Assembly (NCBI GenBank): GCA_000200715.1
Contig: DP000238.1
Coordinates: 1,328,593 to 1,392,592, forward strand
DNA from: Cenarchaeum symbiosum A
Lineage (GTDB): Archaea > Thermoproteota > Nitrososphaeria > Nitrososphaerales > Nitrosopumilaceae
DNA: 64,000 bases
Reading direction: 5' to 3'
Positions 22,373 through 45,241 of the stretch are shown in pieces. Every line of letters begins with the position of its first letter. Within the stretch, counting starts at the first letter, position 1. The notes under the pieces are model-generated. The model ran no database searches and was not told the origin of the DNA. It saw only the letters and a program-made list of their open reading frames with translations. The position numbers and the translations under genes are program-made.

Positions 22373-25300
22373 TCACGCAAAGAGGGACCGGAGCCACCCT
22401 GTGATCATCTCGAGTATGCCCATTTCCTCCTCGGGCTCAATCTCGATCTCCGGTTCGGGCACAGGCTCCGGCTCGGGCTCGAGTTCCGGCTCGGGTTCCG
22501 GATCCATTTCGGGCACGGGTTCTGGTTCGGGCACTGGTTCCGGCTCGGGCTCGGGGACCAGCACTGGCGCAGATACCGGCGCTGGCGCGGGCTCGGGGTC
22601 CAGTACCTGCGCGGATACCGGCTCGGGGTCTGCTCCAGAGACCGCTATGTCGTACTGGGTGCCCGTGTGTGAGATGAGGTATATGCCGCGGTTGTCCTGC
22701 AGCGAGGCGCTCAGCCTTCCGGTAAAGCCGTCCTCGAACGGTATCTCAAGGGTTGGCGCGCCGTTTGCGGCCCCCAGTGAATATGATACCATCCTCTCCA
22801 GTATGACGGAGGATACGTCGCACGAGTACAGGCGGTCCAGCCTGTTGTCGTTCCCGCTGCAGGTCGCCTGCCCCAGCATGGCGGGCACCGCGTTGTACTG
22901 GATGTTGGCGCCCTGCTCGGTCCCAAGGCCGTAAAGCAGGATCTCCATTGAAAAGACCCGGACGGCGCTGCTCTCGACAGCTATGTGCGGGATGACGACC
23001 AGCGAGTGCCCGGGCAGCACGCGTATGCTCGACGGGGTGACAAGTGCGCTCGTGCCGTTGGAGAGGAATTCGAGCGATGCAGTGTCAGTGCCTATTGTAT
23101 TCAGGGGGTCCCTGCTGCTGCCGCTGCTGCCGCCTCCGCCGCCGCCACCGCCTCCGCCGACTCGCGGCTGGACCGGGGTGATGGGCTCGATGGGCTCTTC
23201 GGGTTCGGGCACCAGGATGGCGATTTCTCTAAAGCTTACCGCCGGGGAATCAGAGATCCCAAGGGATATCCCACGGGATATGGCATCACCAACCGTGGGG
23301 CTGTCAGTTTTTCTGATTTTACCCGGAGTGAAGAGGAAGGGATCATCATCCACCGCGGGGGCATCAGATTCTGTGATGTTCAGCGGAACGGGGGACGCAG
23401 GTACGCGGTCTGCCGTGGGGAAGTCGCCCACCGTCGGCCCATCTGTAGCACTAAGCGGTATGTCGCGCGATATGGAATCAATGATCGTGGGGGTGTCAGT
23501 TCTCTCGATATTAGACGAGTCGGGACCCATCATATCGATCACGCCCGGCGTATCAGTCAACACCACGGAGCGGTTCTGGCTGACACTATCCGCCGGGGTG
23601 GGAGAATCTCCCGCAATGATCCGTGGGGACACATCCAAAAGGTAGAGGTTCAGGGCATACTGGACCACAGTATTGCTGTCAGAATCCGCTATGAACATGT
23701 GCAGGCCGTCGGCCGAGAACGTGAGTCCCGTCGGATCAGCTACCGTATCGTTGAGGGAGAACCTGCCCATGGACGTTTTGCCGGAGACGTCAAAGGCATC
23801 CGGCAGGCTGAACATCTCCACAAAGTTGAACTGGTCGTCCGCAATGAACATCCGGTGGCCGTCGGATGAGAATGCAACCGCCTGTGCGGTTATCACCCCC
23901 AGTCCCGTAAAGCCATCAAATGATGCCGTAGAGACGTCGTACCCCGTCCCCAGCGAGTACTGGTACACACGATCATTTTCCAGATCTGTAACAAACAGCC
24001 TCGTGCCGTTGGGCGAGAGTGCCAGGCCGGTGGCCCCGGCGATCCGAGGAGCTGAGGGAGTACCATCCTGCCTGAGATCAAGGAATCCCGAGAGTACGCC
24101 GTTGGGTATGTCGTATGGTGTTGACAAAGTGTAGCGGTCTACCCGCTGGGCGATCTCCACGGTAGGGGTGGTGAGGACCCCCTTGCCCACCGTGTACATG
24201 AACGTGCCGTTGGGGGAGAAGTGAATGTCAGTCAGATCGTTCTGCCTGGCCAAGACCGATTGGTGCGTGTGGAATGCGGCCGTGTCTATGTCGTATGGAT
24301 CCGACATGCGGTATGCATACACGGCGTCATTGTCGTTGCCCGAGATGATAATCAGCGTGCCGTTCCCGGAGATCGCCACTCCCGTAGAAGTGGTATCATT
24401 TTCCGAAACATCAAGCGATGCAGTCGGGAACGTCCGGTTGTCATTCGGGAATACAAATGCGGCGGGGAAGGGCGTGCCGTCCTCGCCGAGAACAGCCCTG
24501 GCCTCGAACTGTATGTGCGGATCCGCGTAAAGTGTGATGTTGCCCAGATGGTCAGGCGTCAGGTTCAGGATTATTGCAGAGTCCTCAACCCGCGGCGTCG
24601 CGCCTCCAAGGTTTATCCCGCCGGAGAACTCGGAGCCGTTTCTCACATTGATCCCCGATACATCGACCGAGTTTACGGGCGCGTCAAACTCGAGTGTCAG
24701 AGCCTCCCCGTCCACGCGTGCCGAGAGCAGTTCAAGACTCCCCTCCAAGAGCGGCAGGACAAAGTCGGATACTGCGGGGGCGCTCGACGCACTTACATTA
24801 ATGAGCACCGGCGGCAGCAGGTCTGAAGCCAGCGGGAATGAGTTCAGGGCGTACTGGAGCACGGAGTTGCCGTTCGTGGTGAACAAGTGCAGGCCGTCTG
24901 ACGAGTATGCAAGTGCATTCACGGTGCCTGCCGTGCCGCCCAGATGGGACCCGCCCGTAAACTCTGCGCCGGTTACATTGAAGGGCTCCGCCAGTGCATA
25001 CAGGTACACCCTCTTGTTAGTATCGCCCGATACGTACATGCTCATGCCGTCAGGTGTAAACGTCACCGCCGTGGGGGATCCGTCTTCAGTTATGTTCATG
25101 TTTCCTGCCAGAGCGGCCCCCGCTACATTGTACGGCGGATCAAGTACATACTGGTGGACCTGGTCGTTGGCCAGGCCCAGATAGAACAGATTCGTGCCGT
25201 CAGGCGATAGCGCCAGGCCGGTGGCGCCCGTATCCTGAAGCGTCACGTTGAGATTATCCACGAGAACGCGGCTCACTATGTCGTATGGAGCCCCCAGGTC

Positions 25301-43300: not shown

Positions 43301-45241
43301 CAGGTCAAACGGCCTTGACAGGGTATAGTGCTGCACCCTTACATTGTCGCCGCCCACGGCGAAGACGGCGTCTCCATCCTCGGTGAATTCAACCCCGTAC
43401 GGGGTGACGACCCGGGTCCCCGCATCCAGCATGCCCGTATGCACGGGCCCCGGCAGGGCAAATGCGGCGGGGAAAGATGTGCCGTTCTCCCCCCCGATGG
43501 CCCGGGCCTCGAACTGTATGTGCGGTTCAGCATAGGCAGAGATGCCGGCCAGATGCTCATTCGTCAGGCTCAGGACCGTGGAGTTGCCGGTCGAGACGGA
43601 CGCTGCGCCGCCAAGGTTCGTCCCGCCGGAAAAGTCGGTGCCGTCCCTCACGCTGATCCTCGACGAGTTTACAGAGTTCACGGGGGCGTCAAATTCAAGG
43701 GTCAGCGATCCCCCGCTGGCCAGGTACGCCGAGAGCAGAAGGGGGGCAGGCGGCGCGTCGAGCAGCGCGCCTGATTCGCCCAGTGAGAGCCGCGAGGACC
43801 GCGGGGGCACGGCACGATCCGTGCCGTCCCCGCCGGCTGCGGGGCTCATGGTGCCGCCGGTCTCGAGGGAGTCCTCCCCCAGGTATTGTAGCGGGCCTGT
43901 GCCGTCGCCCTGCTGTACGTCGTAGCGGAATAGCAGATCCTCGGTGCCGGATCCCGACACGTACCCGGCAGCCGCCCCCACGTCCACATCAAGCAGCAGC
44001 TGCGGCTTTCCTGCGACGCTTACGGGCTCGGAGAATGAAACTGTAATGTTTACTGTATCGTCCGCCTCGTATCTCCCCGGCGGCGCGGAGACAGAAAGCA
44101 CGTACGCCATGTGCGATGCCGTGGCCTTGCGGTATTCGTACACATTGAGCTGCGGCTTCCACGGGTCCCGATCTCTGTTATCCGCCACAAATATGTGGGT
44201 CCCGTTTGTCGCCAGCCCCTGCGGGTGAATGTCGCGACCAGACGGAATCTCCTGCAGCAATCTAGCCGTCTCGCTTGTAACGAGCACCCCCCTGTCCTTT
44301 TCACCTACGAGTATGATCCCGTCGGATGCATGTATGCTGGTGGGCTCAATGTCGGCCGCCCCCGCCAAGAGGAAATTGTCGAGCACGCCGGAGAACGTGC
44401 CGTCCTTTTCAAACACCTGCACCCGGTGGTTATCGCGGTCCGCGACAAGGAGGTGGGTCCCGTTGTATGTCACGTCGCTTGGCTGCTTTACGCGCCCCTC
44501 GACGGTGTTGTCATCCCCCCCGGTGTCCGCGAATGTGCGATGGCCACTGCCGTCCGGCTCCAGTACGTGCATCTTGTCTCGCACGTCCGCTATGACTATC
44601 TCGGGGGCCAGTACCAGGCCCTCCGGGTTGAACAACGTCGGGACGGGGGTCTGCTGGATTGCGCCGTTGCCAAGATCCACCACAAAGACTGTGTTGATTA
44701 CACTGCTGACGGCCACCGCGTGGGTCGAGTTGACATCCATCCCGCGGGGTGCCCATTGCATACTGATCGTATCGGCCAGCTCGAGAGATGAATCGTATAT
44801 GCGCAGGTTCCCATCGCTCTCATCGGTTGCAAAGAGATGGGTCGAGTTGTGCGCCAGTGAGTGCAGCGACGCCGGTACGCCCCCAGTTGCGTTGTGCACG
44901 TGCAGTGCGCCAAGCCGCACGCCGTCCTGCGAGGAGACCGCCCCCAAGAATCTTACCAGCGGGGGGTCGTCCTCCACTGTATCATTTTCAAGAATCAGAA
45001 ATACCCCGCGGCCCTCGACCGACGTATTCATGACACGGTTGCCGGGCACCGCAAAGGCCTCCGGGAATACCGACTGCGGGTCCACGGGATCTGTAAACAC
45101 CAGCTTTACCGTGTTGCCCCCCGGGGTGAATGCGGCATACTCTAAATCAAACCCGACCTGGGAGTGCGATGTGCCGGCATAGGCAAACGCCAGCAGTACC
45201 AGCGGCGCCAGCAGCGCCACCCGGCGCAAGTCACGCGTCAA
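22373..45241 (-). CDS. Giant modular secreted beta-propeller/SwmB-like protein, 7,622 residues
   Basis: One uninterrupted frame filling 36% of the window. The start is TTG 45241 (a stop precedes it), giving a signal peptide [19 protein letters not shown]. Residues ~29-115 form a SwmB-like beta-sandwich, ~115-375 NHL/propeller-like repeats ([16 protein letters not shown]), and ~378-470 an Ig-like [17 protein letters not shown] domain. Eleven modules follow (~500-7200), each a SwmB-like domain ([12 protein letters not shown]...DGTDFSGG) and ten ~45-residue repeats of the type [16 protein letters not shown]; module 11 has five. The C-terminus has 'SDxPxxxD' repeats, a ten-Gly linker, a beta-rich domain with two Cys, a Pro/Glu stalk (~7535-7600) and a short tail ([16 protein letters not shown]). 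No transmembrane helix is evident. A surface or secreted adhesion-type role is inference. No TATA box lies at the usual distance; an AT-rich stretch is at 45355-45415. Confidence 0.9.
22437..22640 (-). repeat. Pro/Glu-rich stalk of the giant protein
   Basis: Low-complexity coding repeat made of PEPEP and PVPEPE units, with Asp and Ala in the distal part. It resembles the extended spacer segments that lift adhesin domains from the envelope. Confidence 0.7.
23121..23159 (-). repeat. Poly-Gly linker of the giant protein
   Basis: A GCC/GCG/GCT-type triplet run coding for ten consecutive glycines followed by Ser-rich residues. It separates the propeller-rich part from the C-terminal beta domain. 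Confidence 0.75.
23640..43740 (-). repeat. Eleven tandem ~1.9-kb modules of the giant gene
   Basis: Taking the conserved LLSAxLD start of each SwmB-like domain as boundary, modules in protein order occupy about 41794-43740, 39845-41793, 37998-39844, 36153-37997, 34141-36152, 32286-34140, 30366-32285, 28526-30365, 26667-28525, 24735-26666 and 23640-24734. Lengths are 1,840-2,012 bp except the last (~1.1 kb). Each carries ten blade-like repeats; module 11 keeps repeats 6-10 only. Two versions of the first propeller repeats exist: type A ([12 protein letters not shown]...RGQGNGL) in modules 1, 2, 6, 7 and 10, and type B ([12 protein letters not shown]...[12 protein letters not shown]) in 3, 4, 5, 8 and 9. 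Long near-identical stretches between modules suggest recent duplication or conversion. Confidence 0.85.

Follow-up and report, generated by a model that had tools for sequence, protein, structure and literature searches.

Units of five propeller blades and a shared C-terminal cassette in a 7,622-residue predicted surface protein of Cenarchaeum symbiosum A

The window analysed here (64,000 nucleotides of contig DP000238.1 of Cenarchaeum symbiosum A) raises the question of what a single open frame of 22.9 kb encodes, and how its product would be kept at the cell. Giant genes of C. symbiosum are presumably already annotated, as hypothetical. The frame (22373..45241, minus strand) contains no internal stop, and its start codon lies immediately 3' of an upstream TAG. 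It stands alone among housekeeping genes, with NAD synthase and cysteinyl-tRNA synthetase downstream and a divergent phosphoglycerate kinase upstream.

In terms of integrity, codon-position GC is constant over all 22.9 kb, dN is lower than dS in all 45 module pairs (dN/dS of ~0.4-0.6), and the longest exact repeat in the gene is 88 bp. Given this short repeat, repeat collapse in the assembly is unlikely, and the three observations together argue against an assembly artefact. The window itself lies in one contig of 2,045,086 bases. An artefact, or a decaying gene in the consensus of a mixed population, would find some favour in a genome that is probably a fosmid population consensus, and in several sister genes that are split by overlapping frames. 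This explanation is nonetheless very improbable, as 22.9 kb pass without a stop and with steady codon-position GC, every module pair has dN below dS, and no exact repeat exceeds 88 bp. The giant frame is a real single gene under selection, and in this respect the first-pass annotation, which had described one gene for 7,622 residues, is upheld.

The gene and its parts, in the order of the protein, are the following:

22373..45241, minus strand: the entire gene, 7,622 codons and a stop codon, starting with TTG (open frame, codon statistics)
45158..45241, minus strand: putative signal peptide, residues 1-28, end approximate (sequence, hydropathy)
44903..45157, minus strand: N-terminal beta domain, residues 29-113 (sequence; region without Pfam or NCBIfam match)
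44117..44902, minus strand: NHL-type propeller region, residues 114-375, about 6 blades by eye (Pfam NHL, 1e-8)
43739..44116, minus strand: second beta domain, residues 376-501 (sequence; no NCBIfam match)
41792..43738, minus strand: module 1, sandwich and 10 blades, read as two five-bladed propellers (module alignment, blade HMM)
39842..41791, minus strand: module 2, sandwich and 10 blades (module alignment, blade HMM)
37994..39841, minus strand: module 3, sandwich and 10 blades (module alignment, blade HMM)
36149..37993, minus strand: module 4, sandwich and 10 blades (blade HMM; whole module and five-blade half modelled)
34136..36148, minus strand: module 5, sandwich and 10 blades (module alignment, blade HMM)
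32282..34135, minus strand: module 6, sandwich and 10 blades (module alignment, blade HMM)
30365..32281, minus strand: module 7, sandwich and 10 blades (module alignment, blade HMM)
28523..30364, minus strand: module 8, sandwich and 10 blades (module alignment, blade HMM)
26663..28522, minus strand: module 9, sandwich and 10 blades (module alignment, blade HMM)
24731..26662, minus strand: module 10, sandwich and 10 blades (module alignment, blade HMM)
23633..24730, minus strand: module 11, sandwich and five blades only, equivalent to blades 6-10 (blade HMM)
23099..23632, minus strand: Ser/Asp/Pro-rich linker repeats and a poly-Gly run (sequence)
22634..23098, minus strand: cassette part 1, Cys-pair beta domain, residues 7382-7536 (profile searches)
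22430..22633, minus strand: cassette part 2, acidic Pro/Glu stalk (sequence, family comparison)
22376..22429, minus strand: cassette part 3, terminal amphipathic helix (family comparison, motif search)

Most of the protein is modular. The eleven propeller modules described previously are recovered from the starts of the sandwiches (residues 502, 1151, 1801, 2417, 3032, 3703, 4321, 4960, 5574, 6194 and 6838), as ten full modules, each 614-671 residues long and sharing 55-79% identity, followed by a short eleventh. Two subtypes can be told apart by eye among the full modules, arranged A A B B B A A B B A, with subtype A retaining the GQGNGL insert of blades 1-2. A blade HMM, built from the giant gene and iterated once on related frames of the genome, counts 105 module blades (ten times ten plus five) beside the 11 beta-sandwiches, in agreement with the earlier estimate of about 105, and also picks one NHL blade near the N-terminus, outside the modules. 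That the modules are related to propellers is borne out by matches of the blades to Pfam families of the Lactonase, SGL and WD40 type, down to 1e-31. The match to PF10282 (Lactonase/YVTN) reaches 1.2e-31 and 110.6 bits, above the curated cut-off of 21.7. The best relative of solved structure by sequence is 1l0q_A (1.8e-14), a surface layer protein of Methanosarcina.

As for the sandwiches, the proposal that they are SwmB-like found no support. A search with all 11 gave no SWM or SwmB model even with E-values as high as 10 admitted, within the limits of the HMMER filters. Pfam and NCBIfam gave no confident family for them, the only match being PF13205 (Big_5) at E = 0.23.

The modules had also been described as ten blades plus one sandwich. 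The count is right, but as the unit five fits better than ten. Counting blades between sandwiches in the related frames of the genome, we found 100 of 109 runs with 5, 10, 15, 20 or 25 blades (n = 20, 54, 23, 2 and 1, respectively), and the remaining nine with 4, 6, 8 or 9. Leaving out the giant gene, 89 of 98 runs are multiples of five, against 20% expected for an arbitrary blade number; as the runs are mutually related, a binomial value for this figure is no strict probability. Structure prediction of single modules, which the first-pass annotation had put forward as a check, gave different results for the half and the whole. With AF2, the five-blade half of module 4 alone is predicted as a compact domain (pLDDT 85, pTM 0.85), and the ten-blade module reaches pLDDT 80 and pTM 0.55, its confidence dropping around the junction of blades 5 and 6.

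Compared by Foldseek, the five-blade unit resembles nine predicted phage proteins (TM 0.85-0.91, rmsd mostly 2-3 Å), and seven-bladed PDB propellers at a TM of only ~0.55. No five-bladed PDB entry is among its top structure matches. A seven-bladed ring was rejected on this low TM and on the multiples of five. We also considered one ten-bladed ring per module, as in the VPS10/sortilin domain, with the last module as a degenerate half. All ten full modules of the giant gene have ten blades, and their strand pattern, in which an extra outer strand precedes blade 1 but does not follow blade 10, would also allow a closed ten-bladed ring. Such a ring is improbable, however: in the paralogues, 20 runs have five blades, 23 have fifteen and one has twenty-five; five blades alone are predicted to fold with high confidence; stand-alone five-blade proteins occur in viral contigs; and sortilin/VPS10 families are absent from the Pfam matches listed. 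The natural unit is better read as five blades, with two predicted five-bladed propellers in each full module. An origin by simple recent doubling of this unit found no support, as blade similarity by offset has no clear periodicity of five.

Applied to 80 viral loci, the blade HMM detects, as distinct complete runs, 62 with five blades, 16 with ten and 12 with four. The viral contigs (L130-L209, e.g. L138:2490-3326) encode stand-alone five-blade propellers without a named family, sometimes several in a row (L153, L165), and PHROGs gives only weak matches for them, of unknown function in that resource. The phage homologues sit among tail-fibre and tail-assembly genes. The propellers of marine phages (Roseobacter, Lentibacter and Synechococcus phages, and IMG/VR contigs) share 25-35% identity with the giant protein over ~250 residues, runs of five or ten, and a predicted fold at TM ~0.9. 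Unlike it, they mostly have one or two units per protein, lie in a tail-gene context and, in those inspected, lack the C-terminal cassette. A functional hint comes from Staphylococcus phage phi11, whose receptor-binding protein gp45 has a five-bladed platform proposed to bind sugar, which could accommodate GlcNAc (PMC4901313). This protein was not found as a sequence relative, and the likeness is in fold class only.

Among known cellular systems, propellers of the YVTN/Lactonase type (PF10282, PF08450; 1L0Q) are alike in blade sequence, and the 1L0Q relative shares the archaeal surface location proposed here. They differ in having seven blades, where the giant protein would have units of five, 21 of them in one chain, with sandwiches as spacers. 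NmSLP, the S-layer protein of Nitrosopumilus, comes from the same lineage and is also a large secreted surface protein rich in beta structure (PMC11153153), but is built of Ig-like repeats and has no propellers. NHL and WD40-like repeats appear in domain surveys of sponge thaumarchaea (PMC7848895). In the open-access literature searched, we found neither the five-blade rule nor the shared cassette described.

The C-terminus has all the parts that had been noted before, namely a poly-Gly linker, a Cys-pair beta domain, a Pro/Glu stalk and, by hydropathy, no transmembrane helix. Only two of the 7,622 residues are Cys, forming the single pair C7461 and C7474. The last 240 residues recur in the genome, and a search with the Cys-pair domain gives 33 additional locations, all but one with E below 1e-5. 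Counting the giant gene, the domain is present in 32 frames of the stretches read, and both Cys are invariant in all 31 aligned sequences. After the domain, cassette-bearing frames continue with ~70-90 residues enriched in Pro, Glu, Ala and Asp; the terminal helix has the consensus G-hydrophobic-hydrophobic-D-x-I-x-x-F-F-R-S-L-F-G. A search of every frame of the genome gives eight matches to FFRSLFG, each of them ending a family frame, and no such match to the reversed control pattern. Helical moments of the terminal helix are ~1 to 3 standard deviations above shuffles. Hydropathy in the cassette passes the usual transmembrane threshold in one member only, marginally (1.63). One tail-bearing frame is without the Cys-pair domain.

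The Cys-pair domain has no match in Pfam, NCBIfam or PDB. It was not found in 150 relatives (the same-genus genome included) or in 397 genomes of the phylum, a set that overlaps the 150, and a wider scan of a genome collection, from which the own genome may be left out, gave no relative. A secreted subtilase (L045:5260-11502; PF00082, 5.7e-27) also ends in the cassette, which argues for a transferable function, as expected of an anchoring part.

Retention at the cell surface had been left unexplained in the first-pass annotation, and the cassette common to ~30 frames now offers a candidate anchor, with a putative role. A comparable system is that of the PEFG-CTERM proteins of Nitrososphaerota (TIGR04296), in which many secreted proteins also have a common C-terminal surface-sorting signal; the cassette differs from them in having no transmembrane segment. 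TIGR04296 has eight matches in the genome, none of them on family frames. TIGR04485, searched as a supposed thaumarchaeal sortase, is in fact SoxX and is uninformative here.

The cassette may instead be a signal for assembly, export or maturation, with a helix that docks on a partner or is removed, and proteins that are released or polymerise. The absence of a transmembrane helix and of the PEFG-CTERM motif from the family proteins would suit such a signal, as would the shortness of the terminal helix and the tail-bearing frame without a Cys-pair domain. We hold this main rival to be less likely than anchoring, though likelier than the other alternatives, as the long Pro/Glu stalk before the helix is easier to reconcile with a tether that spans a gap than with a tag that is cleaved off, and nearly all family frames keep the cassette at their extreme end. 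The cassette probably holds the proteins on the cell. The broader proposal, that its three parts are an undescribed means of fixing proteins to an archaeal cell surface, free of transmembrane helices, with which one sponge symbiont displays over 30 proteins, including many giant fibres that hold five-bladed propellers in whole numbers, is tentative and has somewhat less than an even chance of being right.

The giant gene is not the one-off of unnamed layout it had seemed, since more than 30 related frames are present in the same genome, with the cassette common to ~30 of them, that is, to nearly all members. Frames ending in the tail total ~251 kb, or 12.3% of the genome. Members of 11,983, 10,044, 6,880, 5,288 and 5,246 aa are among them. 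Cassette-bearing members occupy 134 kb of a 218-kb stretch (C1:757847-973724), with others elsewhere (L041-L072). A second member lies at the right edge of the window (58958-64000, plus strand, 2,249 aa) and extends beyond it. A signal-peptide-like N-terminus is seen in 25 of 32 frames; the other seven lack one at the chosen start, and several of these adjoin frame breaks. Nearly all members have no transmembrane helix.

Some overlapping neighbour frames look as if one giant gene had in each case been interrupted by a frameshift or stop codon, through either sequencing error or a real break (C1:764077-804797; 859605-877651; 676322-685434; 327374-333833). One of these would exceed 13,000 aa if it is a single gene.

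Neither module nor cassette is present in the closest same-genus genome; even close relatives therefore do not share the trait as a rule. Weak blade matches in two other genomes (G010 and G032) were set aside as different, truncated proteins, the one in G032 having BspA-like repeats. For the five-blade unit, the wider genome-collection scan, which may not have covered the own genome, gave one weak match in Armatimonadetes.

The family proteins are very poor in lysine, with 0.3-1.8% compared to 5-8% in most other proteins sampled, and strongly acidic, with a net charge of -5 to -11 per 100 residues. These values, held across the family, are in line with a mainly structural or ion-trapping outer coat, in which the giant proteins would not be adhesins but acidic polymers with little lysine, serving to bind ammonium or to protect the cell. 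The S-layer of N. maritimus does concentrate ammonium through its acidic residues (PMC11153153). Against a coat of this kind, which we find quite improbable, elaborate and diversified propellers would be superfluous for a mere charged layer, and the relatives searched also oxidise ammonia yet lack the family.

Our best reading is a lineage-specific family of surface adhesins with a new C-terminal cassette; its architecture is well supported, and adhesion and anchoring are what we infer. For the giant protein, we give a probability of roughly 0.55 to a signal-exported fibre of 21 predicted five-bladed propellers that would be anchored by the cassette and bind ligands multivalently. Export would rely on the N-terminal signal peptide that had been proposed earlier and is still suggested by the sequence, at about residues 1-28. 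After an NHL propeller, the chain would fold into 21 five-bladed beta-propellers in a row, a pair in each of the ten full modules and a single one in the eleventh, with the beta-sandwich as spacer between modules, making a very long secreted fibre. The cassette would hold it at the cell through a beta domain with a putative disulphide, the acidic Pro/Glu stalk and the terminal helix. The stalk may span the space at the cell surface; its ~70 residues, if extended, would reach an estimated ~20 nm, perhaps enough to cross the archaeal pseudoperiplasm. The amphipathic helix would bind the membrane or some partner in the envelope. The faces of the propellers may serve as multivalent ligand-binding sites, as five-bladed propellers do in phage receptor-binding proteins, the ligands being most likely glycans or surfaces of the sponge host or of neighbouring cells.

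The rule of multiples of five, together with a tail of Cys-pair domain, stalk and helix, provides a way to recognise and test many giant hypothetical genes. The same five-bladed unit in marine phages points to a recognition domain shared by virus and symbiont. Finally, these results suggest that a symbiotic archaeon puts ~12% of its genome into surface fibres that are absent from the close relatives searched, an investment that bears on how archaea attach to animals.
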